Below, piece after piece: positions 7,476 to 21,536 of a stretch of 54,396 nt of DNA (within the stretch, counting starts at the first letter, position 1; each line of letters opens with the position of its first letter). The stretch spans positions 503,610 through 558,005 of the forward strand of contig NZ_JABVCF010000002.1 of NCBI RefSeq assembly GCF_014595955.1. The letters run 5' to 3'. This DNA comes from Pseudaminobacter soli (ex Zhang et al. 2022). Its GTDB lineage: Bacteria > Pseudomonadota > Alphaproteobacteria > Rhizobiales > Rhizobiaceae. The position numbers were made by a program, and so were the translations under genes. Below the pieces are notes generated by a model, which had not been told where the DNA came from, did no database searches, and saw only the letters and a program-made list of their open reading frames with translations.

Positions 7476-7736
7476 TCACGTGCGGTGTTTTCCGCTTCTC
7501 CGCGCTTCAATCTTCTCTATCCACTCGGCGCCGATACCCAGCTCGCGGATGATTGGCAGCGGGTCCTGCCAATCCAGCCGCGAGCAGAGTCGGTAAACTT
7601 CCAGTGTGTCGGCGCTCATGTCGCCGCGCATGTGGAAGAACATGGCTGCGGCATAGCGGGCTCGGCCGGACCAAGGCTCGCCAAGCGGTGCATCGACGAG
7701 AGCCCCTTGCTCGTTCAGCGCGTCGTCGCCGGACAT
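7476..7736 (-). CDS. Small conserved-looking protein coupled to the GcvT-like gene
   Basis: An 86-residue soluble, mainly helical-looking protein (MSGDDALNEQGALVDAPLG...; YRLCSRLDWQDPLPIIRELG). I do not recognise the family. Its ATG begins one base after the stop of the GcvT-like gene, so it is almost certainly translated from the same mRNA. It is therefore probably the last gene of the oxidoreductase/GcvT operon and could be an accessory subunit. There is no Cys pair, signal peptide or membrane segment to hint at a role. Confidence 0.65.
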   Translation of the reverse strand: MSGDDALNEQGALVDAPLGEPWSGRARYAAAMFFHMRGDMSADTLEVYRLCSRLDWQDPLPIIRELGIGAEWIEKIEARRSGKHRT

Positions 7737-7737
7737 C

Positions 7738-8985
7738 TCAGAACCGTCCCGGCGGGGTCGCTATACGACGGGGGAGCTTTATGAAGGGGCGCGGGACGAT
7801 CTTCGCCCGCTTCATCATCTTGATGTATTGCAGTTCGCGCATGGCATAGATCTCCACCCAGAGATCGGCTGTGCCCGGCCGACCATAGCGCCTGTCCAGG
7901 CTGGCAATCGCTATGTTGCGCTTCGCCGTGGGCGACCATATGGCGGCGGAGACGAGGCCGACCTCGCGCTTGGCGTTGTGATAGACAATGGCATGCTCGG
8001 CTGGGACGTTGCCTTCGATCTCCAGTCCGACCAACAGCTGCGCCGGACCGCCATTCGCCCGCGACTTCTCGATCGCGCGGCGCCCGTTGAAGTAACCCTT
8101 CTTCAGATCGACCATGAAGCCCAGCCCGATCGCGTCGGGCATCCTGACGCGGTCGGACCGCAGGGCGTGCTCGGCCGTGACGAAGTCGGCATTGGCGACG
8201 ATGAATCCCGCCTCGATGCGGGCCCGGTTCAGGGCGGCATAGCCGATGGCGCGGATGCCGAAGAGCTTTCCGGCCTCGAACAGCCGGTCCCAGAGCGACA
8301 AGGCGTGTCCTGCATTGACGAAGATCTCGTAGCCGAGGTCACCGGTAAAGCCGGTTCGGGAGATGGTGACCTCTTCGCCCTCGTGCGCGAAGGTGCCGAT
8401 GTCGAATGGTTTCAGGCGTTCGGTGCCCGGACAGCCGGCAGCTTCGAGCACCGACCACGAGGTCGGCCCCTGCAGCGCGAGTGCGGCGATCTCTTCGGTC
8501 TCCTCCTCGATCTCGACCCCGAAGCCGATGGCGCTATCGAGAAGCCACGGCAGATGCCGCTCCTGGCAGCACAGGCGGAACCGGGTGTCGGAGAGCCGGA
8601 AGAGGGTGCCGTCGTCGAGCACATGCCCATCGTCGTCGCACCAGGCCGTGTAGTGCACGCGACCGGGGCGAAGCTTCGTGACGTCGCGCAAGGTGAGACG
8701 GTCGAGGAAGCCTTCCGCGTCCGGCCCCTCGATGCGGTATTTCACCATCGGCGAGATGTCGAAGACGGCGGCCTGGCTGCGAATCGCGAAATATTCCAAT
8801 TCCTCGTCCCACAGTACGCTAGGTGCCTTATAGCCCGCCCAGTCGTACCATTCCTGGCGGCTGCTCAAGGCCTCGACGCGCGGCTGGAAGGGCGTGCCCA
8901 GCCGCAGCGTGCGGAAGTGGGGCTGGAGGGCGAGGCGATGGGCGATTTCTGTAGGTTTCGTACCCACGGTCATGTCGGCGTTCAT
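7738..8985 (-). CDS. GcvT/DmdA-family folate-dependent demethylase-like protein
   Basis: A 415-residue protein of the aminomethyltransferase (GcvT) family. Typical blocks are FAIRSQAAVFDISPMVKYRIEGPDAEGFLDRL near the N terminus, ISRTGFTGDLGYEIFV in the middle, and a C-terminal barrel region with VGLEIEG and GLVSAAIWSP. Members move a one-carbon group from an amine or a sulphonium compound to tetrahydrofolate. The glycine cleavage partners gcvH and gcvP are absent, so it is more likely a stand-alone demethylase (as DmdA) than glycine cleavage T protein. The start at 8985 follows a G-rich ribosome site; an in-frame ATG at 8973 is possible. It lies downstream of two flavoprotein genes, with a palindromic repeat between. 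Confidence 0.85.
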   Translation of the reverse strand: MNADMTVGTKPTEIAHRLALQPHFRTLRLGTPFQPRVEALSSRQEWYDWAGYKAPSVLWDEELEYFAIRSQAAVFDISPMVKYRIEGPDAEGFLDRLTLRDVTKLRPGRVHYTAWCDDDGHVLDDGTLFRLSDTRFRLCCQERHLPWLLDSAIGFGVEIEEETEEIAALALQGPTSWSVLEAAGCPGTERLKPFDIGTFAHEGEEVTISRTGFTGDLGYEIFVNAGHALSLWDRLFEAGKLFGIRAIGYAALNRARIEAGFIVANADFVTAEHALRSDRVRMPDAIGLGFMVDLKKGYFNGRRAIEKSRANGGPAQLLVGLEIEGNVPAEHAIVYHNAKREVGLVSAAIWSPTAKRNIAIASLDRRYGRPGTADLWVEIYAMRELQYIKMMKRAKIVPRPFIKLPRRIATPPGRF

Positions 8986-8990
8986 TCGCG

Positions 8991-9145
8991 CCCCCCTCTG
9001 GCCTGCCGGCCATCTCCCCCACAAGGGGGGAGATCAGGCTGGCCGCGGGGCCTTCGCCATTCGCCAACGTGAGGGTTTGGTTGCCGAGATCGGGGCTGCC
9101 GATCTCTCCCCTCGTAGGGGAGATGGCCGGCAGGCCAGAGGGGGG
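8991..9145. repeat. Large palindromic intergenic repeat element
   Basis: The outer arms, 8991-9019 and 9117-9145, are a perfect 29-base inverted repeat (core CTGGCCTGCCGGCCATCTCC). Two small inner hairpins lie at 9011-9035 and 9101-9124 (CATCTCCCCCACAAGGGGGGAGATC and its partner). The core GGGGAGATGGCCG is shared with the element at 30877-31041. It separates the flavoprotein pair from the GcvT-like gene within what looks like one operon, so it may affect mRNA stability or partial termination. Confidence 0.88.
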
Positions 9146-9196
9146 CAACGTGGAGCGCGACCTTTGAGCGCTCAGAGGAACTATCTCGGACAAAGA

Positions 9197-10774
9197 TCAC
9201 GCTCTGCCTCCCAGCACCCTTCTCGCCGCGTTCATGCCGGGCACGCCGAAAATGCCGCCGCCGGGATGCGAGCCAGAGCCCGCCAGAAAGAGGCCGGGGA
9301 GAGGTGTGTGGTAACCCTCGGCCCCGAACACCGGGCGCGACATCAGCATCTGGTCGGCCTGGAGCTCGCCGTGATGCCAGTGGCCGCCTGGCATGCGGTA
9401 CCGCGCCTCGATGTCGGCCGGCGTCAGCAGTTCGGAATGGAGGATGGTCTTGCGGATGCCGGGCGCGTGGCGCTCCAGGACCGAGAGTACCGCCTCCAGC
9501 AGCTTCGGCTTGCCGGCCACCCAGCCTTCCTTGAGCAAGTAGGGTGCATACTGGATCGTTGCGGATAGCACGGAGGCGCCTGTCGGCGCGAGCGACGGAT
9601 CGCCGATCGACGGCAGCGTGATCTCCATCGCCGGTTCGGGGGAGAACTCGCCATGCTTCGCGGGGTTGAATGCCCGCTCCACGTAGTCGGTCGATGACGC
9701 GATCACGAGGCGCGCGTTACGGTACTGCTGAGGCAGGCCGTTGAATGCCGGGATACGCTCAAGAGCGAGGTGCAGCTTCGCGGCGTCGCCCTTCATGCGG
9801 ATGTTGCTCACGCGCCGAACGAACCCGGTGTCGAGGTGTTGGGGGCCGACCAGTTCAAGAAACGTGGTCGCCGGGTTCAGCGCCGAGATCACCTTGCCCG
9901 CCCTGATATCCTCGCCGCTATCGAGCATCACCCCGGTGGCCCGGCCTTTCTCGACAAACACCTTCGCTGCCACGGCGCTGGTTCGGATCGTGACGCCCGC
10001 CGCTTCCGCCGCCTTGCGCACAGCCGCCATGACCGCGCCCGTCCCGCCTGCCGGAACGAGCTGCGCGCCGGGAGCGCCGCCCAGTTCGCCGGCCAGGCGA
10101 TAATAAAGGCCGAGCAGCGAGGTTGGCGAACGCGGGCCGAGATGGCTGCCCAGCACCGCATCGAAGGCAAGCAGCCCCTTCAGCCGATCGTCTTGAAGGC
10201 CCTCGTCGCAGAAATCGGCGACGTTCATCAACAGCACGCGCAGGAAGTCGCGCATGTCCTCCCGACCGAGCCGCTTCAGCGACAGGCCCGTCATCGCCCA
10301 GGCGGAGGACGCCGCCAGATCCATGCCGTCGAGCGAAGGCGGGCGGCGCGCAAGCAGCGGCTTCAGGATGTCGGCGTAGCGGAAGAGCTGGGCGCGAACT
10401 TCGGCCCAGGCCTGCTTTTCGGATGCATCGGCGCCTTCAAGTCCCTCGCCATAGGCGCCGGTGAGGATCAGCGGCTTGCCTTCCGAAGAGAGCGCCACCG
10501 TCGGCACCTGGTGGGCGGGGGAGAGGTCGAGGCCGTGCTTCTCCAGCTCCAGCGCCTTGACCACTTCGGGGTGCAGCCGGTTCAGGAGGTGCGCCATCGA
10601 CACGCGAAAACCGGGAGCGAATTCGTGCGTGCGGCCCGCGCCGCCTATTTGCTCTTCCGCTTCCAGCACCAGGACCTTGCGACCGACCCTGCCCAGGAAA
10701 GCGGCGCACACCAGTCCGTTATGGCCGCCGCCGATGACGACGGCATCCCATCTGGTTTCGTCAGATGACGTCAT
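9197..10774 (-). CDS. FAD-dependent oxidoreductase of the phytoene-desaturase-like family (second copy)
   Basis: A 525-residue flavoprotein. The N-terminal Rossmann motif is AVVIGGGHNGLVCAAFLGRVGRKVLVLEAEEQIGGAGRTHEF. The C-terminal FAD loop is LFLAGSGSHPGGGIFGVPGMNAAR. This matches COG1233 (phytoene dehydrogenase and relatives), whose bacterial members include many amine and carotenoid oxidoreductases. The start overlaps the end of the preceding homologous gene by 14 bases. No carotenoid gene is nearby, so carotenoid chemistry is unlikely. The shared cluster suggests oxidation of an amine-type substrate, which is inference. Confidence 0.85.
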   Translation of the reverse strand: MTSSDETRWDAVVIGGGHNGLVCAAFLGRVGRKVLVLEAEEQIGGAGRTHEFAPGFRVSMAHLLNRLHPEVVKALELEKHGLDLSPAHQVPTVALSSEGKPLILTGAYGEGLEGADASEKQAWAEVRAQLFRYADILKPLLARRPPSLDGMDLAASSAWAMTGLSLKRLGREDMRDFLRVLLMNVADFCDEGLQDDRLKGLLAFDAVLGSHLGPRSPTSLLGLYYRLAGELGGAPGAQLVPAGGTGAVMAAVRKAAEAAGVTIRTSAVAAKVFVEKGRATGVMLDSGEDIRAGKVISALNPATTFLELVGPQHLDTGFVRRVSNIRMKGDAAKLHLALERIPAFNGLPQQYRNARLVIASSTDYVERAFNPAKHGEFSPEPAMEITLPSIGDPSLAPTGASVLSATIQYAPYLLKEGWVAGKPKLLEAVLSVLERHAPGIRKTILHSELLTPADIEARYRMPGGHWHHGELQADQMLMSRPVFGAEGYHTPLPGLFLAGSGSHPGGGIFGVPGMNAARRVLGGRA

Positions 10775-12380
10775 GGGCCGGGCTCATGTGGCTGGTGCCG
10801 CGTTTCAGGTCGCGCAGGATTTCGAGGGCGGCGTTGCGCCCGGGTGCGCCCATGACGCCGCCGCCGGGGTGCGTGGACGAGCCGCAGATGTAGAGGCCGC
10901 CGATCGGCGAACGGTATTGCGCGTAGCCGGGCACCGGGCGGTTGAAGAGAAGCTGGTCGAAGGTGAGCTCGCCCTGGAAGATATTGCCCTCGGTGAGGCC
11001 GACCTCGGCCTCCAACTCGCGTGGCGTCCTCACCTCCATGTGGACGATGCGATCGCGAAAGCCCGGCGAATAGTCGACGATCTGCGAGATCACGGTCTCG
11101 GCGAAGGCGTCGCGGTCGGCATCCGTCCACTCGCGGCCCTCCACCTTCGGCGGGCAGTACTGGACGAAGACGCTCATGAAGTGCTTGCCGGGCGGTGCCA
11201 TGGTGGGATCGAGCGTGGTCGGAATGACCACGTCGAGGAACGGGTCGGCCGACCAGCGGCCCGCCTTCCAGTCGTCGTAGGCGCGTTCCATGCGCTCCAC
11301 CGTATCGGTGAAATGCAGGTCGGCCCGCACGCAGGGCGAATCCGGCGGCAGGGCCGGGAACTCCGGCATGGAATCGAGCGCGATGTTCAGCTTGCCGGAG
11401 GAGCCGCGCATGCGGAAGTTGCGGACGCGGCGCAGGAAAATCTCCGGCAGCTCACGTTCATCTACGAGCTTCAGGAAGGTGCGCTTCACGTCGGCATTTG
11501 AGATCACCATCCTGCCGTGGATTTCCTCGCCGTCGCTGAGCACGACGCCGGCCGCCTGGCCCTTCTTCACCAGGATCTCTTCGACCTCGGCTTGCGTGCG
11601 GATCGTGCCGCCAGAGGCGCGGAACGAGTCGGCAAGTGCCTGCGTGACCGCGCCCATTCCACCGCGCGCATAGCCCCAGGCGCCGACTGACCCGTCGACC
11701 TCGCCCATATAGTGGTGCAGGAGCACGTAGGCCGTGCCCGGAGACATAGGCCCAAGAGCGGTGCCGATGATCCCGGAGAGCGAGAGGTTGGCCTTGATGA
11801 CGTCCGTTTCGAAATACTCGTCCAGAAAGTCGGAGATGGACATGGTCCAGAAGCGCATCGTATCGGCCATCTCGCGCGCGCCGAGACCCGCGAATTTCCT
11901 GGCCAAGTAGACGAGTTCGCCGATGTCGCGCGGCTTCAGGCTGGTCGGATCGGGGGCGGTGCGCATCAGCAGCGGCTGGATGAACCGGCACTGGCGCGTC
12001 ACGTCGCGCGCGTAGCGGTCGTAGGCCTCGGCGTCCTTCTTCGAGAAGCGCGCGAACTCGCGGCGGTGTGCATGGTGGTCGCGGTAGTTGGCGAGATAAT
12101 CCCCGTCCCGCGTGAAGACGGCGCCGCCCTCGTACGAGATCACCTGCAGGCCGAAGCGCGGCAGATCGAGATCGCGCATGATCTCCGGCCGGAACAACGA
12201 GCAGACATAGGAGCAGTTCGAATAGAGGAAGCCCGGCGTCAGCGAGCGGCTGACCGCGGCGCCGCCGATCCACTTGTTCTTCTCGACCACGAGAACATCG
12301 AGGCCGGCCCGCTGCAGGTAGCAAGCGTTGACCAGGCCGTTGTGGCCCGCGCCGACGACGATGGCATCCCATGTCTTCAT
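10761..12380 (-). CDS. FAD-dependent oxidoreductase of the phytoene-desaturase-like family (first copy)
   Basis: A 539-residue flavoprotein with [39 protein letters not shown] at the N terminus and [28 protein letters not shown] at the C terminus. It belongs to the same COG1233-type family as the next gene. The two are clearly homologous but well diverged, suggesting old duplication and a possible heteromeric enzyme. The ATG at 12380 has AGGGAGGGG ten bases upstream. A TTG three codons earlier would be too close to that site. It is the first gene of a minus-strand operon running to 7476 and diverges from the methyltransferase gene across a BetI-type palindrome. Confidence 0.86.
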
Positions 12381-12443
12381 TGGCGGCAAACCCCTCCCTT
12401 GCCCGCCAGTCTGGCATGCCGATTCGAGGGCTGTCCAGCCGTA

Positions 12444-12459
12444 TTGAATGAATGTTCAA
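12444..12459. promoter_or_regulatory. BetI-type operator, site 1
   Basis: TTGAA-TGAATG-TTCAA, a palindrome with 5-base arms and a 6-base centre. It lies in the 162-base gap between the divergent flavoprotein operon and the methyltransferase/regulator operon. It is the same pattern as sites 18743-18758 and 21517-21532. The arm sequence TTGAA/TTCAA recalls the operator of the choline repressor BetI. Confidence 0.8.
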
Positions 12460-12542
12460 CAAGCGGCCTTGTGTTTCGCCAATGTTGTTATAGGCTTTCG
12501 CTTACATCCGGCGCTCTTGCTTCAGTTCGAGACGACGAACGC

Positions 12543-13343
12543 ATGACGACAGTCGGCCACTCAGGCGAACCGGAATACGACGACACGGCGATCCGGTTCC
12601 TGGAGGCGCTGTGGGGGGAGGGGTATCTCTCGCCGGGCGGTCCGGACGAAGTCGACCGGGTTCTGGAGGGGATCTCCCTGCACGGTAAGTCGGCGCTGGA
12701 CATCGGCTGCGGTTCGGGTGGCATTGCCCTGCATCTGCTGGAGCGCCATGGCGCCGCCCATGTGACCGGGTTCGACGTAGAGCAGCCCGTTGTCGAGCAG
12801 GCACGCAAGCGGGCGGCCGAGAGGGGCCTCTCCGTGCGTGCGGAATTCGTCCAGGCACCGCCCGGGCGACTGCCATTCAAGGACCGGTCCTTTGACGTGG
12901 TCTTCTCCAAGGACGCGCTCCTCCATGTCCCCGACAAGGACGCGCTTTTTGCGGACATCTTCCGGGTGCTCAGGCGGGGTGGCATATTCGCTGCAAGCGA
13001 CTGGATGATCTCGCATGACGGGGAGCCGTCGGCGGACATGAAGGCCTATGTCGCGGCCGAGGGCCTGAGTTTCTCGATGGCCTCGCCGGAGCGCTATCGG
13101 CAGGCGATGGAGCGCGCGGGCTTCGAGGACGTGCGGATCGTCGATCGCAATCCCTGGTACAGGGAGGTGGCGCGCGGGGAACTCGCCCGGCTCAAAGGGC
13201 CGCTTTATGCGAAAGCGGCCGCCGCGGTCGGAAACGCTTATGTCGACAAGAACATACGGACCTGGGAGGCGATGCAGAAGGTGCTTGACTCGGGGGAGCA
13301 CCGTCCCACTCATCTGCGTGGCAGGAAGCCGGACAAGGACTGA
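12543..13343 (+). CDS. SAM-dependent methyltransferase, phosphoethanolamine N-methyltransferase-like
   Basis: A 266-residue protein. Motif I for SAM is [10 protein letters not shown] (residues 51-60), with GFDVE at the end of the second strand. It resembles the Plasmodium phosphoethanolamine methyltransferase over its length: [22 protein letters not shown] parallels the N-terminal active-site lid, and [11 protein letters not shown] parallels SRDAILHL. Tyr12 and His128 fall where that enzyme has its catalytic Tyr19/His132 pair, and the C terminus ([16 protein letters not shown]) also fits. The family makes phosphocholine from phosphoethanolamine. Here the gene stands in a regulon of apparently catabolic enzymes, so the acceptor may differ. 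The BetI-like gene starts six bases after its stop. Confidence 0.8.
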
Positions 13344-13348
13344 CCGGC

Positions 13349-14041
13349 ATGTGGAGCGTCGCATCCGCCATGAAGACCCCCGAAAAGGACGCTCCAGCGG
13401 ATGAGAGGCGTGGCCGCAAGGCCTCGAAGGAGACGCGGCGCCAGCAGTTGATCGATGCGACGATCGATTCGCTCGCCAAGCGCGGCTATGCCGAAACCAC
13501 GATGGCGGATGTAGCCGAGGGTGCGGGGCTGTCGCGCGGCATCGTCAATTTCCATTTCGAGAGTAAGGAAAAGCTCCTCGTCGCCACGCTTCAGTACATG
13601 GCCGACGAATATGCCGCGCACTGGCGTGCGGCGCTGGTGAAGGCGGGCGAGGACCCGGCGCGTCAACTCGGAGCGCTCGTCGCGGCCGATTTCGACCGGT
13701 CGATCTGCAACAAGCGCAAGCTCGCCGCCTGGTGCGCGTTCTGGGGCGAGGCGAAATCGCGGCCGACCTATCAGGTATTGTGTGGCGCGCGCGACGCAGC
13801 CTACCAAAACGTCATCGTCGACCTCTGCCGGCGTCTGAAGGAGGAGGGCGGATACGATTTCGAGCCGTTTTCGACGGCGCTCGGCGTGAGCGCCATGCTC
13901 GAAGGACTTTGGCTGAGATTGATGATGGGGCCCGACGAGGTGACGCGCGAGGCCGCGCATGCCTCGGCAAGGGACGTGCTCGCCTCTATCTTTCCCCGCC
14001 ACTTCGAACGGGCCATGCGGCGGGACCGAAAAATCGCTTGA
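13349..14041 (+). CDS. BetI-like TetR-family repressor
   Basis: A 230-residue TetR regulator. The DNA-binding domain runs from about residue 28 (RRQQLIDATIDSLAKRGYAETTMADVAEGAGLSRGIVNFHFESKEKLL). The ligand domain has CAFWGEAKSRPTYQVLC, which is very like BetI, the repressor of choline-to-betaine genes. No betA, betB or betC lies nearby, so it probably senses a related methylated amine. It sits between the methyltransferase and the binding-protein genes on one strand. The palindromes at 12444, 18743 and 21517 are its natural candidate operators. The start may instead be the ATG at 13370. Confidence 0.88.
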   Translation: MWSVASAMKTPEKDAPADERRGRKASKETRRQQLIDATIDSLAKRGYAETTMADVAEGAGLSRGIVNFHFESKEKLLVATLQYMADEYAAHWRAALVKAGEDPARQLGALVAADFDRSICNKRKLAAWCAFWGEAKSRPTYQVLCGARDAAYQNVIVDLCRRLKEEGGYDFEPFSTALGVSAMLEGLWLRLMMGPDEVTREAAHASARDVLASIFPRHFERAMRRDRKIA

Positions 14042-14060
14042 ACAGGATGGGAGGGGAACG

Positions 14061-15143
14061 ATGACTAATCTGAAACGCAGACTGATCACGGTGGCGGCTG
14101 CGGCCGCGCTCACCGCCTCGGCTTCGGCCATCGCGGTCGCCGACGACAGCGAGCTCACGATCTTCGAGTGGTCGGGCTACGAAGCACCCGAGTTCCATCC
14201 GCGCTACGTCGAAAAATACGGAACATCGCCGACATTCACCTTCTTTGGCGACGAGGATGAGGCATTCGAGAAGCTGCGGTCGGGATTCAAGGCCGACCTC
14301 GCCCATCCCTGCTCGCAGAGCGTGGTGAAATGGCGCGAGGCCGGGCTGCTGCAGCCGCTGGACACCTCGAAGATCGCTGGGTGGAACGACCTCCTTCCCG
14401 GCATCATGGCGATGAAGGATCTTGCCACCACCGAGGATGGAACTGCTTGGTTTATGCCCTGGGATTGGGGCAATACCCTGATGACCTACAACTCCGAGAA
14501 AGTGAAGGAGGAGGAGGTCCAGTCGCTCAAGGCCTTCGCCGACCCGAAGTTCAAGGACCGCGTTTCGATCGGCGACAATGTCGACGATGCCTATGCCCTG
14601 GCCTCGCTCGCCATCGGGCTGACGGACTGGACGAAGATGACCGACGATCAGTTCAAGGAAGCTTCGGACTTCCTGCGCGCCGTGCACAAAAACGTGCGTC
14701 TCTACTGGACCGACAACACCGACATCGTCCAGGCGATGAGCGGCGGAGAGGTGGATCTTGCCTGGGCCTGGAACGATGCCAGCGTCCAGGCCGCGCTCGC
14801 AGGCGCGCCGGTCAAGGCCAAGAAGGACACCGATGAAGGCCTGTCGACCTGGGTTTGCGGCTATGTGCGCCTGAAGGACGCTCCCGGCAGCGCGGAAAAG
14901 GCGTACGACTTCCTCGGCATGGTCAACGAAGATCCCAAGGTCGCGCAGTATCTGCTCGGCGACTGGGGCTATGGCCACGCCAACGCCAAGGCTCTGGCGA
15001 GCATCGATCAGAAGGTCCTGGATGAAAAGGGCTACGGTGACGTGACGAAGTTCGTCGACAAGACGCTCTTCCAGGCCCCGATTCCCGCCGAGCTCAAGCT
15101 GAAAATGATTGCGGAGTTCGAGAAGATCAAAGCCGGCTATTGA
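14061..15143 (+). CDS. Periplasmic substrate-binding protein, polyamine/betaine-type ABC importer
   Basis: A 360-residue PotD/PotF-type binding protein. The signal peptide covers about residues 1-28 (KRRLITVAAAAALTASASAIAVA, then DDSELTIFEWSGYEAPEF). The mature part has FTFFGDEDEAFEKLRSG, PWDWGNTLMTYNSEKV and VDLAWAWNDAS. This family binds polyamines and related cations. GGGAGGGGAACG directly precedes the ATG, a strong site. It follows the BetI-like gene by 19 bases, but its membrane and ATPase partners are on the other strand at 15798-18602, beyond an unrelated gene. Confidence 0.9.
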   Translation: MTNLKRRLITVAAAAALTASASAIAVADDSELTIFEWSGYEAPEFHPRYVEKYGTSPTFTFFGDEDEAFEKLRSGFKADLAHPCSQSVVKWREAGLLQPLDTSKIAGWNDLLPGIMAMKDLATTEDGTAWFMPWDWGNTLMTYNSEKVKEEEVQSLKAFADPKFKDRVSIGDNVDDAYALASLAIGLTDWTKMTDDQFKEASDFLRAVHKNVRLYWTDNTDIVQAMSGGEVDLAWAWNDASVQAALAGAPVKAKKDTDEGLSTWVCGYVRLKDAPGSAEKAYDFLGMVNEDPKVAQYLLGDWGYGHANAKALASIDQKVLDEKGYGDVTKFVDKTLFQAPIPAELKLKMIAEFEKIKAGY

Positions 15144-15154
15144 TTCTTTCGACA

Positions 15155-15170
15155 GCCGCCTTCGGGCGGC
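15155..15170 (+). terminator. Weak hairpin after the binding-protein gene
   Basis: GCCGCC-TTCG-GGCGGC, a stable tetraloop hairpin 11 bases after the stop. There is no T-run, so it may mainly protect the 3' end of the mRNA or serve as a weak terminator. Confidence 0.45.
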
Positions 15171-15190
15171 CGCTCGTCCAGCGAAAACGT

Positions 15191-15598
15191 TCACAATCGG
15201 GATCCGGGCGCCACTTCCCGGGTCGCTCGGTCGGATGCGTGCTTCTTGGCGCGCTCGGCGGCGCGTTCGCAGGTCTTTCGCAGTTCCTCGACCTCCGCCT
15301 CGGTAAGGTGCTCGATCCCGATGAAAGCGTCCTTCGCTTTCGACACTCGGATCAGTTCATCCAGCTTGGCCTGGATTGCGACTCCGTCGCGATTCTGGGT
15401 GTTCTGGATCAGGAAGACCATCAGGAACGTGACGATCGTCGTTCCCGTGTTGATGATCAACTGCCACGTGTCCGAAAAACCGAATATCGGGCCGGTTACC
15501 GCCCACACCAGAATCAACAATACACAAAGCATGAAGGTGCTCGGTCTCCCGGATGCGCTGGAGACCTCGGTCGCTATCTTGGAAAACATTCGTTCCAC
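15191..15598 (-). CDS. Low-affinity iron permease-family small membrane protein
   Basis: A 135-residue protein with two membrane segments, at about residues 20-38 (FMLCVLLILVWAVTGPIF) and 45-64 (LIINTGTTIVTFLMVFLIQNTQNRDG), followed by a charged coiled helix. The TGTTIVTFLMVFLIQNTQNRD block is the hallmark of the low-affinity iron permease family (PF04120). The bacterial members have not been shown, to my knowledge, to carry iron. The GTG at 15598 has GAGGAGG seven bases upstream, so I prefer it to the ATG three codons later. The gene sits between the binding protein and the rest of its transporter. Confidence 0.8.
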   Translation of the reverse strand: MERMFSKIATEVSSASGRPSTFMLCVLLILVWAVTGPIFGFSDTWQLIINTGTTIVTFLMVFLIQNTQNRDGVAIQAKLDELIRVSKAKDAFIGIEHLTEAEVEELRKTCERAAERAKKHASDRATREVAPGSRL

Positions 15599-15797
15599 TT
15601 GAACGCCTCCTCGCGGTGCTGCCACGACCGACTCCCAACTGTTGCGCGTGCCTCGCTGCATGCGCGGCAGTCTGTCTTCAACAAAGCACAATGCGGGAAG
15701 TTCCCGCAGTGTTCCTGTGGAAACGCTTACGGATGGGGCCGCGTTTCATCTCAGGCGAGGGGTAAGACCGTAAGCCGCACCTGCCCGGGCGCGTCCC

Positions 15798-16871
15798 TCA
15801 GTCGGCCATCGCCACGAGGGCGTCGGGATCATAGGCAAGCCGGATCGTAGCGCCGATCGGCAGGTCGTCGGCGCCGAAATCGTTGGTCTCGGTCACCGAT
15901 AGCGGCTTCTCCATCCCGGGAACGTCCACGACCAGGTGGGTGATCTCGCCGAAATAGTGCCTTTCGATCACCGTGCCTGCCACCTCATGTTGCGCGGTCG
16001 CGCCATCCCATAGGACGCGCAGGCGCTCGGGGCGGATGCCGACCGTCGCGTGCAGACCCTTGCGGACCAAACCCTGCGGACGCTCGGTGGTCACGCGGCC
16101 GAATCCCTCCGTGTCGACGACGATCGACACGCCCGTCTCGTCGACGACCTCCGCCTTTACGAAATTCATTCCGCCAAGGAAGTCGGCGACTTGGCGATTG
16201 ACCGGCCTCTGGTAGATCTCCTTGGGCGCGGCGACCTGCGCGATCCCGCCCCCGAACATCACTGCGATGCGATCGGACATGGCGAGCGCCTCGTACTGGT
16301 CATGCGTCACCAGCACGAAAGTGATGCCGACGGCCTGCTGAAGCCGGCGAAGCTCGACCTGCATCTGCTCGCGCAGCTTCTTGTCCAGCGCGGAAAGCGG
16401 CTCATCGAGCAGCAGAACCTTAGGCCGCATTACCAGGGCGCGGGCGAGGGCAACGCGCTGCCGTTGCCCGCCGGACAGTTCGTTCGCGCCGCGGCGGCCA
16501 AGCCCGGAAAGCGACACCATCGACAATGCTTCCTCGACCCGCCGCTTCTCCTCTTCGGCGCCGAGCCTTAGGCGCTTCAGGCCATAGGCGACGTTCTGCT
16601 CGACATTGAGATGTGGAAAGATCGCATAGCTCTGGAAGACCATGTTGGTCGGACGCCGGTTCGCGGGGATTCCGTCCATCGACTGGCCGTCGAGGAAAAT
16701 CGAGCCGCTGGTCGGCGTGTCGAGGCCCCCGATCATGCGCAGCAGCGTGGTCTTGCCGCAGCCTGAGGGGCCGAGAAGCGAGAAGAACTCGCCCTCTTTG
16801 ATCGAGAGCGACACGTCGTCCAGTGCCCGGAACGCGCCGTAGCTGCGGCCGACATTGCGGATGTCGATCAT
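15798..16871 (-). CDS. ABC transporter ATP-binding protein (PotA-type)
   Basis: A 357-residue ATPase: Walker A LLGPSGCGKTTLLRMIGG, signature NELSGGQRQRVALARAL, Walker B VLLLDEPLSALD, and the H-loop LVTHDQYEALAMSD. A C-terminal TOBE regulatory domain runs from about residue 275 (ATVGIRPERLRVLW). This is the layout of polyamine/spermidine-type importers. It is the third gene of the minus-strand transporter operon. A TTG at 16883, overlapping the previous stop by eight bases, is an alternative start. Confidence 0.92.
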   Translation of the reverse strand: MIDIRNVGRSYGAFRALDDVSLSIKEGEFFSLLGPSGCGKTTLLRMIGGLDTPTSGSIFLDGQSMDGIPANRRPTNMVFQSYAIFPHLNVEQNVAYGLKRLRLGAEEEKRRVEEALSMVSLSGLGRRGANELSGGQRQRVALARALVMRPKVLLLDEPLSALDKKLREQMQVELRRLQQAVGITFVLVTHDQYEALAMSDRIAVMFGGGIAQVAAPKEIYQRPVNRQVADFLGGMNFVKAEVVDETGVSIVVDTEGFGRVTTERPQGLVRKGLHATVGIRPERLRVLWDGATAQHEVAGTVIERHYFGEITHLVVDVPGMEKPLSVTETNDFGADDLPIGATIRLAYDPDALVAMAD

Positions 16872-16875
16872 GGAG

Positions 16876-17688
16876 TCAGGCAAGTGTCACCCCGGCGCTC
16901 TGCACCCGCTGCTCGGCTCGCCGCCGGATCATCTCGGCGAGCGTGAGAAGCAGGAAGGACCCGACGAGAAGCAGCGTGCCCAGCGCAAGCACACCCGGAA
17001 GCTTGGCGGCGAAGCGAAGCTGGCCCCAGATGTAGATCGGCAGGGTCGCCTGGGTGCCGCCGAGGAAGAAGGCGATGATGAAGTCGTCCAGCGAGATGGT
17101 GAAGCAGACGAGCAGCGAGGAGATGATCGCTGGCGTCACCATCGGCAGCGTGACCCGCCGGAACGTGCCGAAGGCGGTTTCCCCGAGATCGGCCGACGCC
17201 TCTTCCAGGCTGCGATCAAAGCCCTCGAAGCCGGAGGTGAGGACGCTCATGGAATAGGGCAGGCAGATGAGAACGTGGCCGAGAACGATGGTGAACAGCG
17301 ACAGGTCCAGGCCGAGGCGCAGCAGCACGAGCAGCAGCGACACCGCCAGGATGATCTCGGGGAGAACCAGCGGGGCCATGATCAGCCCGTTGATCGGCCG
17401 CCGCCCCGGGAAGCGGTAGCGGGTGATGGCACGCGCAGCGCAGATTCCGAGCAATGTCGAAAGCAGCGCGGCTGCGACGCCCACAAGGAGGCTGTTCCGT
17501 GCCGCGTCGATGAGAGCGGCGTTGCGGGGAAGCTCCTCGTACCATCTGAGCGTGTAGCCCGAGAGCGGGAATTGCGGGGTGGGCGCGGTGTTGATCGAGA
17601 AGATCGGCAGGAACAGGACAGGCAGATAGAGGAAGGCGATGTAGAGCGCCGCGTAGGCTGGCAGCCAGCGGCCAGGCATGCGCTTCAT
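16876..17688 (-). CDS. ABC transporter permease (PotC-type)
   Basis: A 270-residue permease with six predicted membrane segments. The EAA loop is EEASADLGETAFGTFRRVTLPMVTPAIISS, which docks with the ATPase. FYISLDD-like sequence (CFTISLDDFIIAFFLGG) is typical of PotC/PotI proteins. Its ATG overlaps the stop of the upstream permease as ATGA (17685-17688), so the two are translationally coupled. Confidence 0.91.
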   Translation of the reverse strand: MKRMPGRWLPAYAALYIAFLYLPVLFLPIFSINTAPTPQFPLSGYTLRWYEELPRNAALIDAARNSLLVGVAAALLSTLLGICAARAITRYRFPGRRPINGLIMAPLVLPEIILAVSLLLVLLRLGLDLSLFTIVLGHVLICLPYSMSVLTSGFEGFDRSLEEASADLGETAFGTFRRVTLPMVTPAIISSLLVCFTISLDDFIIAFFLGGTQATLPIYIWGQLRFAAKLPGVLALGTLLLVGSFLLLTLAEMIRRRAEQRVQSAGVTLA

Positions 17689-18602
17689 CGGGCCCACCTC
17701 ACCGCCAGGCGGAGCAGCAGAACCGAAGCCGCGGCCATCGCCGAGACGACCAGCATCGTCGAGACGGAGAGCGCGGCGCCGAGCGGCCAATTTGCGGCCT
17801 TTCCGAATTGCGCCTGGATCGCAGTGGCGATCATCACGCCGTACTTGCCGCCAACCAGCTTCGGCGTAACGTAATCGCCAACGGTCGGGATCATCACGAT
17901 GAGCAGCGCGGAGATCACGCCGGGCATTGAGAGCGGGAGCGTCACGCGCAGGAAGCGCCGGACCGGCCCGTCGCCGAGGTCGGCCGCCGCCTCGATCAGC
18001 GTGCGATCGACCTTCTGCAGGGAAACGTAGATCGGCAGGATGGCGAAGGCCGCCCAGGCATGCGTGAGCGTGATGACGACCGCGCTGGAATTGTAGAGGA
18101 AGGCGGTCGACGGCTCGTCGATGATGCCCAGCGCCAGCAGCCCGGAATTCAGGACGCCATTGTAGCCGAGGATGACCTTCCACGACATCACCCGCAGCAG
18201 ATAGCTGGTCCAGAAGGGGATCGTGATCAGGAACAGCCAGAGGTTCTTGCGGTCGCCGCCGTGAAACGAAATGAAGTAGGCGACCGGATAGGCGAGCACG
18301 ACTGTGGCGACACTGACCGCGAACGAGATCAACAGCGAGCGGAGAAGCAGGTCCCGGAAGATGGGCTCGGTCAGCGCGATCCGGTACTGCTCGAACGTAA
18401 AGGTCCGATCGATCGTCAGGTAGTTCTGCGTCCAGAAGCTGTGCGCCAGAACCACGAGGATCGGTAGGACGAGCAGGACGAGCGCGAAGAGGAAGGTGGG
18501 GCTTACCAGCGCAAAACCTTGCGCGGCTTCCGATTGCAGAAGGGGCTTGGCGCCCGTGCGCGCCTGGCGGATAGCCTGCGACCCTTCCACGGCGGCCGTC
18601 AT
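17685..18602 (-). CDS. ABC transporter permease (PotB-type)
   Basis: A 305-residue permease. A long cytoplasmic N terminus (about 30 residues) precedes six membrane segments. The EAA loop reads IEAAADLGDGPVRRFLRVTLPLSMPGVISALL, followed by IPTVGDYVTPKLVGG, typical of PotB/PotH. It is the first gene of the transporter operon. It diverges from the aminotransferase gene, with the BetI-type palindrome at 18743-18758 between them. Confidence 0.91.
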   Translation of the reverse strand: MTAAVEGSQAIRQARTGAKPLLQSEAAQGFALVSPTFLFALVLLVLPILVVLAHSFWTQNYLTIDRTFTFEQYRIALTEPIFRDLLLRSLLISFAVSVATVVLAYPVAYFISFHGGDRKNLWLFLITIPFWTSYLLRVMSWKVILGYNGVLNSGLLALGIIDEPSTAFLYNSSAVVITLTHAWAAFAILPIYVSLQKVDRTLIEAAADLGDGPVRRFLRVTLPLSMPGVISALLIVMIPTVGDYVTPKLVGGKYGVMIATAIQAQFGKAANWPLGAALSVSTMLVVSAMAAASVLLLRLAVRWAR

Positions 18603-18710
18603 CGCGGCGGCGCGCCTTTCGTCGGATCGACCTTGCGTCCCATTTCCGCTCCGGTCGGCCTTTGACTGGCCGGTTGTTCTGTTCCCGCCGACATCATGCG
18701 CAACAGGCGA

Positions 18711-18758
18711 TTGAAATCAAGCGAAATTTCCGGCTATATTGATTGAACGAACATTCAA
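18711..18758 (+). promoter_or_regulatory. Aminotransferase promoter with BetI-type operator, site 2
   Basis: The likely sigma-70 promoter is TTGAAA (18711-18716), 18 bases, TATATT (18735-18740). The palindrome TTGAA-CGAACA-TTCAA occupies 18743-18758, just after the -10 box, a position suited to repression. It lies in the gap between the divergent aminotransferase and permease genes, so it could control both. Confidence 0.78.
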
Positions 18759-18830
18759 AATGCGGACGATTTAGTTAGCTTTTTCAGTGGCTTGTAGCGC
18801 TACGGATCGTGCATCTGAGGAGAGAATAAA

Positions 18831-20252
18831 ATGGCGTCGATCAGGAAGGCAAGTGCAGGGCCCTCCAAGTATGAGGTCTCGGCCGAGGCCGCGGTCGACC
18901 TCGCGAAGCGACACCTCATCCAGCCTTGGCCCTATTCCGGCTCGATCGGCACCGAGGCGCGCAGCCTGATCGGCAGCGGCGACGGCATCTACATCCATGA
19001 CGGCGAAGGGCGGCGGCTGATCGACGGGCCAGCCGGCATGTGGTGCGTGAACGCCGGCCATCGCCGCGAGGAACTGGCGCGCGTCATGTACGACCAGGCG
19101 ATGGAACTCTCCTACAACACGCCCTGGTACACGATGAACTCGCCGTCCGCCGTACTCGCCGAGCGGATCGCCGGCCATGCGCCGGGGGACTTGCGGCACG
19201 TTTTCTTCACCACGGGAGGCTCGTCTGCGGTCGAGAGCGCGCTGCGCTTCATGCAGTTCTACAACAATGTGCGCGGGCGCTCGGAGAAGAAGCTAATCAT
19301 ATCGCGCGGCGGCGCCTATCATGGCTCGACCTATCTTTCCGCCTCGCTGAACGGCCGTCCCCGCGATCGTGACTGGATGGACATCGCCGGCGGCCTGGTC
19401 GTCAAGCTGACGTCGCCCGATCCGTTCCGGCGCCCGGCAGCGATGACGATCGAGGCCTTCTCGGACTTCCTGGTCTCAGAATTCGAGGAAACGGTCGAGC
19501 GTCTCGGCGCCGACAAGATCGGGGCTTTCGTGGCCGAGCCGATCCAGGCTTCCGGCGGCGTGATCGTCTCGCCGCCGAACTATCTGCCGCGCATCAGGCA
19601 GATCTGCAGGGCGAACGACATCCTTTACATCTCGGACGAGGTGGTGACCGGCTTCGGGCGGCTCGGCGAAATCTTCGCTTCGGAAAGCGTGTTCGGCCTT
19701 TCGCCCGACATCATCACCTTCGCCAAGGGAGTCACGTCGGGCTATTTTCCGCTCGGCGGGATGATCGTCTCGGATCGCCTGCTCGCGGACTTGCGCCGCT
19801 CGAACCATCCGGACGCCATGTATGCACATGGACTGACCTACAGCAGCCACCCGGTCGGATGCGCCGTCGCACTGGCCAATCTCGATCTGCTCGAGAACGG
19901 CATCCTCGACCACGCCCGAGATGTGGCGCCCTACTTCATCGAGGAGATGAAGACGCTCGAAGACCTCCCGCTGGTCGGCGAGGTACGTGGTATCGGGCTC
20001 ATGGCCTGCGTCGAATGTGTCGCTGACCGGGAAAGCAACAATCCGCTGCAACTCGACATCGAGGTCGGCAAGCGCATCGACGCGCACTGCTATGCGCTCG
20101 GCCTGCTTGTGAGGCCGTTGATCCACATGTGCGTCATGTCGCCCCCGCTGATCATCACGCGCGAGCAGATCGACGACATGGTCGCGATCCTGCGTGAGGG
20201 CATTTCCCGCACCATGGAGGATCTCCGGCGCGAGGGCGTGTGGCGGAATTAA
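18831..20252 (+). CDS. Class III (omega) aminotransferase
   Basis: A 473-residue PLP enzyme. Conserved blocks are GPAGMWCVNAGH, FTTGGSSAVESALRF (PLP phosphate site), the Asp of ILYISDEVVTGFGRLG, and the Schiff-base Lys in IITFAKGVTSGYFPLGG. Length and motifs fit the aspartate-aminotransferase-fold class III group, which includes putrescine, beta-alanine and taurine transaminases. The amino donor here is unknown. GAGGAGAG precedes the ATG. The gene converges on the Rieske oxygenase gene, and both lie behind BetI-type palindromes. Confidence 0.9.
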   Translation: MASIRKASAGPSKYEVSAEAAVDLAKRHLIQPWPYSGSIGTEARSLIGSGDGIYIHDGEGRRLIDGPAGMWCVNAGHRREELARVMYDQAMELSYNTPWYTMNSPSAVLAERIAGHAPGDLRHVFFTTGGSSAVESALRFMQFYNNVRGRSEKKLIISRGGAYHGSTYLSASLNGRPRDRDWMDIAGGLVVKLTSPDPFRRPAAMTIEAFSDFLVSEFEETVERLGADKIGAFVAEPIQASGGVIVSPPNYLPRIRQICRANDILYISDEVVTGFGRLGEIFASESVFGLSPDIITFAKGVTSGYFPLGGMIVSDRLLADLRRSNHPDAMYAHGLTYSSHPVGCAVALANLDLLENGILDHARDVAPYFIEEMKTLEDLPLVGEVRGIGLMACVECVADRESNNPLQLDIEVGKRIDAHCYALGLLVRPLIHMCVMSPPLIITREQIDDMVAILREGISRTMEDLRREGVWRN

Positions 20253-20298
20253 TGCGGCCGACCGCCGGCGGCGATGCCTGCCGCAGCGGCGGTGCCGA

Positions 20299-21498
20299 TC
20301 ATGCCCGCGACAGCAGGGCCTCGTTAAGGTTCGACATCTCCTTCTCATCGGGCACGGTCTCGAGACGGAGGACCGGAAGAACCCGGCGCAGATGGTCGTG
20401 GTGCGTTCGCACCCCGTATTCCAGGTCCGAAAGAAAGAAGCCCGAGAAGGCGTCCGACAGCATGGATTCGTTCGACCAGATGGTCAGTTGGATGTCCTCG
20501 GACGTGGTTTCCCGGTCGATGCGGCGCGCCAGATAGCGAGCCGCTCGCTGGCGGCGGTTCTCGTTGGGGTAGCGATAGATCGCACCGCGCAGCAGGGTCT
20601 CCCCGGTGGAGAGCGGAAATTCCTGATAGAACTGCGCGCTCTCAGGCGTCGCGGCGATGACCATATTCGGAAAGATGCCGTAATAGACCCACGCCTTCTT
20701 CAGATCGTCGGGAAGGTGATCCGCCTCCGTTGCAATCCGTACGTAGTTGCGCACGCTCCAGCGGCGGCCGGCGTGGGGACTGTAGGTCGAGAAGGAGCGC
20801 GACACGCCCTTCACATACGGCTCGTCGAAATAGTCGGCGCCATAGAGGTCCTGCAGCGCCGGATGGGCCATGGCGACGTGATAGCCCTCATTGTCGACGT
20901 CCCGCACCGATTTCCAGTTCACCGGGATCTTCTGCGACCAGAAGCCGTCGGAGAGAACCATCTCGCCGATCCGGTAGTGGGCGATCTCGTCGGTCATGGG
21001 CCGCATCAGTTCCGCGACGGAGGGCTGAGGGCCCTTCCGGAACCGCACGAAGATCAGGCCCATCCAGATCTCCAGGTCGAGAGGGATCAGCCCGAAATCG
21101 ACCTTGTCGAGTTCCGGGAAGGAGCGGGGGCGGGCGGCGCCTCGAAGCGTCCCGTCGAGATTGTAGACCCATCCGTGGAAGGGACAGACGAGCGCGTTCT
21201 TGCAATGGCCCCTGTCGTCGGCCACCACGCGCGAGCCGCGATGCCGGCACAGATTGTGGAAGGCCCTGACGACGCCGTCCTGTCCCCGGACGACCAGAGC
21301 TCGCTCTCCCACGATGTCGATGGCCAGATAGTCGCCCGGGCTCGGCATGTCGGAGACATGTCCGACGATCTGCCAATGGGTTCGGAAGACGTGCTCCTTC
21401 TCGAGGTCAAGAAGCGCCTGGCTGTGATAGCTCCAGCCCGGCAGTCCCCGCCTGTCCCATCCCTCCGGCACGGTCACGTCATGGCGGTGCAGGTTCAT
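20299..21498 (-). CDS. Rieske oxygenase alpha subunit (GbcA/betaine-demethylase-like)
   Basis: A 399-residue ring-hydroxylating-type oxygenase. The Rieske 2Fe-2S ligands are Cys84/His86 (NLCRHRGS) and Cys105/His108 (VCPFHGW). The mononuclear iron site is NWKSVRDVDNEGYHVAMAHP with His207 and His212. Close relatives demethylate glycine betaine, stachydrine and carnitine-type compounds. An in-frame ATG at 21528 lies inside the operator palindrome and downstream of the -10 box, so I start at 21498. No reductase subunit gene is adjacent, so electrons must come from elsewhere. Confidence 0.88.
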   Translation of the reverse strand: MNLHRHDVTVPEGWDRRGLPGWSYHSQALLDLEKEHVFRTHWQIVGHVSDMPSPGDYLAIDIVGERALVVRGQDGVVRAFHNLCRHRGSRVVADDRGHCKNALVCPFHGWVYNLDGTLRGAARPRSFPELDKVDFGLIPLDLEIWMGLIFVRFRKGPQPSVAELMRPMTDEIAHYRIGEMVLSDGFWSQKIPVNWKSVRDVDNEGYHVAMAHPALQDLYGADYFDEPYVKGVSRSFSTYSPHAGRRWSVRNYVRIATEADHLPDDLKKAWVYYGIFPNMVIAATPESAQFYQEFPLSTGETLLRGAIYRYPNENRRQRAARYLARRIDRETTSEDIQLTIWSNESMLSDAFSGFFLSDLEYGVRTHHDHLRRVLPVLRLETVPDEKEMSNLNEALLSRA

Positions 21499-21516: not shown

Positions 21517-21536
21517 TTGAACGGGCATTCAATATA
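21517..21536 (-). promoter_or_regulatory. Rieske gene promoter with BetI-type operator, site 3
   Basis: On the minus strand TATATT (21536-21531) is the -10 box, with TTGCTT 18 bases upstream. The palindrome TTGAA-CGGGCA-TTCAA (21517-21532) overlaps it. The symmetry extends to ATATTGAA/TTCAATAT, eight-base perfect arms. Spacing and arrangement copy those of site 2. Confidence 0.8.

Follow-up and report, generated by a model that had tools for sequence, protein, structure and literature searches.

The locus described here raises the question of what is done by a set of genes for import, oxygenation, flavin chemistry, folate-dependent one-carbon transfer and transamination that lie side by side with a repressor gene. 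The DNA stretch analysed, hereafter the window (54,396 nucleotides, bases 503610-558005 of contig 12), belongs to Pseudaminobacter soli, whose genome comprises 6.1 Mb in 51 contigs. Twelve genes were found across window positions 7476-21498, coding for two CrtO-like flavoproteins (flavoproteins A and B, genes flavA and flavB), a GcvT-like protein (gcvT), a small orphan protein, a methyltransferase, a BetI-like repressor, a periplasmic binding protein with two permeases and an ATPase, a class III aminotransferase and a Rieske oxygenase. Genes were called from open reading frames (ORFs) and profile scans against Pfam and NCBIfam; ten of the twelve proteins were profile-scanned, that is, all but the two permeases, which were recognised by similarity to annotated ATP-binding cassette (ABC) permeases. 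All genes listed in the initial annotation, which had proposed an undescribed cluster for methylated amines, were located there with the families it had named.

Two results are both new and strong: a dedicated regulon with three sites, and an invariant flavA-flavB-gcvT core. In line with the earlier impression that the cluster matches no known pathway, no description of the gene set was found in the open-access literature searched for the cluster or its substrate, a search in which the homarine pathway genes were not compared.

A dedicated regulon with three operator-like sites

The genes of the cluster belong to a single regulon, marked by an inverted repeat of 16 bp, TTGAAYGNNNRTTCAA, which occurs in exact form at window positions 12444, 18743 and 21517: as TTGAATGAATGTTCAA at 12444-12459, in the gap between the flavoprotein A and methyltransferase genes; as TTGAACGAACATTCAA at 18743-18758, between the permease and aminotransferase genes; and as TTGAACGGGCATTCAA at 21517-21532, immediately upstream of the Rieske start. 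When up to two mismatches were allowed, ten strand matches were counted in the window, compared to a mean of 1.36 after shuffling, and none of 100 shuffles reached ten. In the whole 6.1-Mb genome, the exact repeat was limited to these three sites, counted as five strand matches, and each lies in a promoter gap of the cluster; a reversed-pattern control gave zero exact matches. Seven genomes taken together contained 17 distinct exact sites, of which 15 lay within the cluster or, by position, beside it; the two outside were G105:C6 and G085:C1:3698370.

Conservation of the repeat was counted, with at most one mismatch, in the promoter gaps of 84 type-1 loci. These comprise the window and loci L009-L094 without L011-L013, most of which end 10 kb from flavA. 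The related loci came from a scan of genome contigs with flavoprotein A, in which the best 80 of 558 stretches, mostly from Mesorhizobium, were taken; picked by flavoprotein A and by best matches, the type-1 loci are biased towards close relatives. The repeat was found upstream of flavA in 79 of the 84 loci (absent from L009, L084, L088, L092 and L094), in the aminotransferase-permease gap in 73/73 testable loci and upstream of the Rieske gene in 21/21 testable loci. Only five other matches occurred in 1.77 Mb, and Markov-simulated sequence (0.5 Mb) yielded about 4 per Mb. The genes are taken as a functional unit, as had been proposed, because their neighbourhood is conserved in the 84 loci and because the operator-like repeat is common to their promoters.

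The repressor, a BetI-like TetR protein with a PF13977 domain, is encoded on the plus strand at 13349-14041, although its start may be at 13370. It scored 121.3 bits against NF001978 (PRK00767), over the cut-off of 118, and 124.8 bits against TIGR03384, under the cut-off of 201.3. We infer that this repressor would bind the three repeats. The literature was also looked through for a BetI operator sequence that could be set beside the repeat, and none was found.

The twelve genes are arranged in five likely transcription units, as judged from ORFs and profile scans. Unit i, on the minus strand, runs from flavoprotein A through flavoprotein B and the GcvT-like protein to the small protein (12380 down to 7476). 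Methyltransferase, repressor and binding protein genes make up unit ii on the plus strand (12543-15143), and the two permeases with the PotA-like ATPase unit iii on the minus strand (18602 down to 15798). The aminotransferase gene alone forms unit iv (plus strand, 18831-20252) and the Rieske gene unit v (minus strand, 21498 down to 20299). The Rieske ORF is open to 21528; an internal ATG gives the end at 21498, as in the initial annotation, and the start was placed there because relatives L009 and L010 start at that codon.

An invariant core and its exchanged partners

Flavoprotein A (539 aa, 10761-12380; PF01593, 64.1 bits) and flavoprotein B (525 aa, 9197-10774; PF01593, 53.4 bits) are encoded on the minus strand by genes overlapping by 14 bp, followed by the gene of the GcvT-family protein (aminomethyltransferase, folate-binding; 415 aa, 7738-8985). 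A less biased sample consisted of 25 genomes, out of 32 further ones in the order and class with flavA; their loci (L117-L141) were chosen only by flavA and searched by tblastn. In this sample flavB adjoined flavA in 25/25 loci and gcvT came next in 23/25; the other two, L121 and L140, stop at contig ends. The adjacency held while identity of gcvT to that of the window dropped to 31-36% in the four most distant loci (L125, L126, L128 and L129). In type-1 loci the order flavA-flavB-gcvT was present in 80 of 84, the remaining four being loci of 5-13 kb.

Two side observations concern the surroundings of the core. The neighbours in L128 are genes for a glutamine-synthetase adenylyltransferase, an EF-hand protein and a sigma factor, which say nothing of a substrate. 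In the window, a dispersed palindromic repeat lies at 9000-9150, between the GcvT-like and flavoprotein B genes, with 30 further matches in the genome, several of them the two strands of one place.

The invariant core consists of flavoprotein A, flavoprotein B and the GcvT-like protein, and the binding protein, aminotransferase and Rieske oxygenase are exchanged in other lineages. Among the 25 loci, six carried an aminotransferase of the PRK07036 type and eight a different one (type 2). The Fuscovulum member of the latter resembles GntE/GSA-aminomutase (420.5 bits; cut-off 525), and the two types occurred together in 0 loci of the pooled set by tblastn. Where a binding protein was seen in type-2 loci, it was only 21-32% identical to that of the window. 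Since binding protein and aminotransferase types are swapped around it, the core looks like a module common to at least two pathways.

Partner genes were also observed on their own. Three 20-kb stretches (G068, G135 and G208) contain two Rieske genes, a type-2 transporter and a cupin but no core. In L160, L161 and L167, from three genomes of a single genus, two Rieske genes and a type-2 importer are joined by a BetI-type gene, the cupin carries the small-protein domain as a fusion, and the flavoprotein-GcvT core is absent. In L159 (8934-12472; genome G248, from the genus of four flavA-positive relatives), permeases, ATPase, aminotransferase and Rieske genes are present without the core, and EamA, PhyH and AraC-type genes lie between the aminotransferase and the Rieske gene.

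The counts for the 84 type-1 loci, obtained by tblastn, were 84 for flavB, 83 for the repressor, 82 for the binding protein, 80 each for gcvT and the small protein, 76 for the ATPase, 74 for each permease, 73 for the aminotransferase, 68 for the methyltransferase, 56 for an amine oxidase and 26 for the Rieske oxygenase. When only the 64 loci of at least 21 kb (or the window) were considered, repressor, binding protein, flavB, gcvT and the small protein were each present in 64/64, the aminotransferase in 62, the methyltransferase in 51 and the Rieske oxygenase in 24. Flavoprotein A was the most conserved cluster protein in type-1 loci, with a median identity of 86% across the 83 related loci. 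Genes next to the cluster that also emerged from ORF clustering (arylsulfatase-like, PRC-barrel and efflux proteins) were not counted as parts, and several scanned ORFs, possibly antisense frames, fell into no family.

Among 249 genomes of the order, flavoprotein A exceeded 950 bits in 17, the source genome included, with nothing between 525 and 950 bits; at E ≤1e-200 it was matched in 17/385 genomes of the class and 7/299 of the phylum. The gene set is kept in Mesorhizobium, Phyllobacterium, Shinella, Ensifer and other rhizobia and rearranged in Rhodobacterales. When plasmids were searched by tblastn, the same seven records ranked at the top for both the Rieske and the GcvT-like proteins: Shinella and Rhizobium sp. 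SL42 carried the same gene set without the methyltransferase, and Fuscovulum and Parasedimentitalea a rearranged one. The PRK07036 aminotransferase was over its cut-off in 32/249 order genomes, and is therefore commoner than the core; it was over the cut-off in 0/14 control genomes.

Substrate, chemistry and competing explanations

The explanation preferred here, to which a probability of roughly 0.55 is given, is a BetI-type regulon for the catabolism of an N-methylated amine, comprising import, Rieske oxidation, folate-coupled demethylation by the core and transamination. Stepwise demethylation with one-carbon transfer and transamination, as originally suggested, remains the best interpretation of the parts, but neither a betaine substrate nor the order of steps was established.

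In the proposed scheme, a PotD-like importer would bring in a methylated cationic compound (step 1), and the Rieske oxygenase would oxidise an N-methyl group or the carbon beside the nitrogen, with electrons from a reductase presumably encoded elsewhere (step 2). The two flavoproteins would act together with the GcvT-like protein as a three-protein demethylation module (step 3), proposed because of the invariant core adjacency and the fold class. In it, a flavoprotein would turn N-CH3 into an iminium and the GcvT-like protein would pass the carbon to tetrahydrofolate as methylene-tetrahydrofolate. The module would then correspond to dimethylglycine dehydrogenase or sarcosine oxidase divided into separate proteins, with flavoproteins of the CrtO-like instead of the DAO-like type. 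The class III aminotransferase would take off the amino group, with the amine oxidase as an addition or alternative in many relatives (step 4). The repressor would occupy the three inverted repeats, which are themselves conserved, and would be freed by the substrate or an intermediate (step 5). No step in this scheme is assigned to the small protein or the methyltransferase.

Flavoproteins A and B, which we take to belong to COG1233, scored 305 and 204.5 bits against the CrtO model, the cut-off of which is 1000. The structural model of flavoprotein A (predicted local distance difference test, pLDDT, 85.7) matched most closely, by fold, carotenoid desaturases together with two uncharacterised oxidoreductases (4rep, 3ka7, 4dgk, 3nrn), followed by amine oxidases including nicotine oxidoreductase, monoamine oxidase and putrescine oxidase. 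The GcvT-like protein stands alone, with no fused catalytic half; PF01571 (193.5 bits) and PF08669 (36.1 bits) are both over cut-off. Its NCBIfam scores, all below cut-off, were 258 bits for the C-terminal half of trimethylamine N-oxide (TMAO) demethylase (the best; cut-off 1100), 208 for GcvT and 138 for DmdA. The former label, GcvT/DmdA-type, holds for the GcvT folate domains; a likeness to DmdA was not established, the protein being less near to it than to TMAO demethylase and GcvT.

A more far-reaching proposal, put forward tentatively and with the odds against it, is that flavA-flavB-GcvT would be an oxidative demethylase of a new kind, a complex of three subunits in which two CrtO-like flavoproteins channel the N-methyl carbon to a separate folate protein. 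It would have evolved independently of DAO-GcvT fusions and would serve two or more pathways that differ in importer and aminotransferase. The methyltransferase (12543-13343, plus strand), a class I S-adenosylmethionine-dependent enzyme (PF08241, 89 bits), has phosphoethanolamine N-methyltransferases as its nearest solved relatives (5wp5, E 5e-33). In a bolder form of the proposal, this phosphoethanolamine-type N-methyltransferase would over-methylate the amine first, making it cleavable.

The substrate was approached through the importer. The ATPase (15798-16871, minus strand) reached 357.4 bits against the polyamine ATPase subfamily TIGR01187, over the cut-off of 355.6, and the permeases occupy the PotC (16876-17688) and PotB (17685-18602) positions on the same strand. 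The binding protein of the PotD/PotF family (14061-15143, plus strand) scored only 82.1 bits against NF007048 (PotD; cut-off 582), and it aligns with PotD across most of its length. According to the part of PMC11414716 consulted, PotD holds spermidine by the acids E36, D168, E171 and D257 and by the aromatics W34, Y37, W229 and W255. All four aromatics are kept in the window's protein (W37, Y40, W237 and W264, respectively), while E36 corresponds to G39, D168 to N173, E171 to D176 and D257 to C266, so that one of four positions stays acidic. All eight mapped positions were invariant in 8/8 aligned members of the binding-protein family. For PotF, conservation of at least 96% across 250 homologues is given in PMC8666671 for D39 and D278, which correspond to two of the acids lost here. 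Since an aromatic box with one-sided acids is better suited to one methylated cation than to a diamine, a methylated mono-cation is the probable ligand, rather than a plain polyamine. A strict polyamine importer, also considered, was disfavoured by this alignment, in which three of the four PotD acids are lost.

The same loss bears on the strongest of the rival explanations, itself judged unlikely, in which the substrate would be an unmethylated diamine, polyamine or guanidino compound whose amine ends are oxidised by the flavoproteins and the aminotransferase, with the GcvT-like protein in some other folate role. The PotABCD-family transporter and the aminotransferase agree with it; the latter scored 708.4 bits against NF005447 (PRK07036), over the cut-off of 618, its nearest solved structure, 3i5t, being named only 'Aminotransferase'. 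So do the amine oxidase and dehydrogenase genes added in some relatives. A PF01593 amine oxidase lies between the binding protein and ATPase genes in 51/85 loci by ORF clustering and 56/84 by tblastn, and directly adjoins the Rieske gene in L162 and L164; in the corresponding gap of the window (15144-15797, 654 bp), no amine oxidase remnant was detected at E ≤10, the nearest match being an 11-residue chance match at 15799. An aminobutyraldehyde dehydrogenase-like gene was present in three loci and a PuuC-like one in L119, and an OYE-type flavoenzyme of 680 aa is added in some relatives. All of these accessory genes, the OYE-type enzyme included, count in favour of the preferred explanation and fit removal of a primary amine to aldehyde and acid, without naming the compound. 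In two loci (L073 and L090) a PRK07524-type thiamine pyrophosphate-dependent decarboxylase was present; this gene and the type-2 loci with their GntE-like aminotransferase favour the rival further and could point to amino-acid or guanidino substrates. Against it, apart from the missing acids, stand the Rieske oxygenase and the GcvT-family protein, both of which it leaves unexplained.

The Rieske oxygenase alpha subunit (399 aa; PF00355, PF00848) carries the motif DNEGYHVAMAH. By sequence, its nearest solved structures are carnitine monooxygenase CntA and then 3vca and 4qup, which we take to be the stachydrine demethylase Stc2. Against NF058607 (GbcA), the best NCBIfam model, it scored 126.6 bits over residues 28-236 only, the cut-off being 670, and no GbcA over cut-off was found in the genome. 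A glutamate is kept at the position aligned with E205 of CntA (numbering of PMC10952381, as far as its excerpt goes), but GYHV stands where CntA and Stc2 have CYHC, and the Cys-X-X-Cys beside the mononuclear iron is not present. All 46 subfamily matches in a motif scan of the related loci, some of them overlapping, likewise had no Cys pair, while partner Rieske proteins in L012, L117 and L162 keep CYHC. Its earlier placement in the betaine-demethylase group therefore stands as regards the closeness to CntA and Stc2, but not as regards their Cys pair or the GbcA score. The pair is described in the same excerpt as unique to some group V Rieske enzymes (PMC10952381), and since it is reported for only some members, an enzyme without it may still be an N-demethylase.

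The missing Cys pair of CntA and Stc2 (again by the excerpt of PMC10952381) is also one of the points in favour of a ring substrate, such as an N-heterocycle or aromatic amine, which would be hydroxylated by the Rieske oxygenase, desaturated by the CrtO-like flavoproteins and stripped of an N- or O-methyl group by the GcvT-like protein. The likeness of the flavoproteins to carotenoid desaturases speaks for this as well, as do Rieske and CrtO-like flavoprotein pairs elsewhere with no GcvT match in the stretches examined. Such two-gene units, with a Rieske protein 35-38% identical, were observed in L116 (8166-10958) and L185-L188, and they suggest an older partnership; the gene neighbours in L185 and L186 were uninformative. 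With no ring-cleavage enzyme, coenzyme A ligase or hydrolase among the ten scanned window proteins, and with carnitine monooxygenase as the nearest solved Rieske structure, a ring substrate is considered quite improbable. Very little weight is given to the possibility that the cluster encodes the known pathway for homarine (N-methylpicolinate) or a near variant of that pathway. This compound is an N-methyl cation, and a conserved pathway for it has been reported in environmental bacteria (cited in PMC13390433); that pathway, in the portion of the source consulted, involves N-methylglutamate dehydrogenase (Mgd), and none of the ten scanned window proteins is so named.

Several points weigh against catabolism of an N-methylated amine, the explanation preferred above. 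No characterised orthologue was found for any cluster enzyme, so that substrate and reactions are drawn from family relationships. No ferredoxin reductase was identified in the cluster of the window, CrtO-like flavoproteins usually work on C-C bonds, and a methyltransferase inside a demethylation regulon is unexplained. The decarboxylase and GntE-like genes mentioned above count here too. No match to the repeat was found in the Rhodobacterales plasmid loci L011 and L012 or in the distant loci L117, L118, L120 and L138. Finally, a Rieske orthologue (>500 bits) was present in 20/249 order genomes, nine of which were without flavA (>950 bits), and six of the 17 flavA genomes were without a Rieske orthologue over 500 bits. 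Both were present in eleven order genomes: in seven they lie no more than about 14 kb apart on a single contig, in G105 and G224 the contigs differ, perhaps through breaks, and in G037 and G228 they are separated. The Rieske gene and the core are therefore regarded as linked but separable. The comparison of gene content and order in other Hyphomicrobiales, called for in the initial annotation, nevertheless showed a conserved cluster and not orthologues scattered with no co-occurrence, the core-free Rieske genes aside.

The small protein (86 aa, 7476-7736, minus strand) had no match in Pfam or NCBIfam. Its five-helix model is of high pLDDT (93.4). In Fuscovulum, a homologue (45% identity over 62 aa) forms the N-terminal part of a PF16867 cupin of the DMSP-lyase family (L011:23240-24091), and L011 also encodes an Amidohydro_3 protein; similar genes occur in L141. 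A relationship to the flavoprotein assembly factors SdhE/SDHAF2 was considered. By sequence, 0/25 members matched the Sdh5-type Pfam profile at E ≤10, a search in which HMMER filters drop most weak matches; among the fold matches, none of them significant, the first-ranked Foldseek hit was the yeast assembly factor 2lm4 (E 1.6, TM 0.28).

In many rhizobia, which are users of plant root compounds, the cluster is conserved as a unit on the chromosome or on a plasmid. Rhodobacterales from marine samples have counterparts of it, and no assigned function was found for the cluster. If the preferred explanation is true, soil and sea bacteria would possess an unrecognised route to use methylated nitrogen compounds as a source of carbon, nitrogen and one-carbon units, together with a demethylation module of new composition. 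A dedicated repressor and three operator-like sites make the cluster directly testable, and the substrate would be revealed by the ligand that frees the repressor or by the one to which the binding protein attaches.

Comparison with known systems

A plain glycine-betaine or choline pathway was rejected for the cluster. As the initial annotation had stated for betA/betB, gcvP, dimethylglycine dehydrogenase and sarcosine oxidase, no BetA, BetB, GcvP, dimethylglycine dehydrogenase or over-cut-off sarcosine oxidase was present among the ten scanned proteins, the other two being ABC permeases. Elsewhere in the genome, SoxA has three full homologues over cut-off, and its GcvT half has seven further matches in frames of 804-1018 aa (G000 contigs 49, 23, 4, 1, 5 and 45).

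Like the BetI regulators of choline and glycine betaine genes, the repressor is a BetI-type TetR protein that reaches the PRK00767 cut-off. It differs from them in falling short of TIGR03384, in belonging to a cluster without betA and betB, and in having exact operator-like sites confined to that cluster. The importer belongs to the same transporter family as PotABCD and PotFGHI, with an ATPase reaching the polyamine subfamily cut-off; in contrast to these systems, the amine-binding acids are replaced by G, N and C, while the aromatic box is retained.

The Rieske oxygenase is closest in sequence to the group V enzymes CntA and Stc2 and shares with them the glutamate corresponding to E205 of CntA, whereas the Cys-X-X-Cys is lacking and the cluster is without an identified reductase. 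The two flavoproteins share their fold class with CrtO/CrtI-like flavoproteins and flavin amine oxidases, but they lie far below the CrtO cut-off and form a tandem pair tied to GcvT. With TMAO demethylase (Tdm), dimethylglycine dehydrogenase or oxidase and the sarcosine oxidase alpha subunit, the cluster has in common a folate-binding GcvT domain. In those enzymes this domain is fused to a DAO-type or DUF1989-type half, whereas here it is a separate protein encoded behind two CrtO-like flavoproteins.

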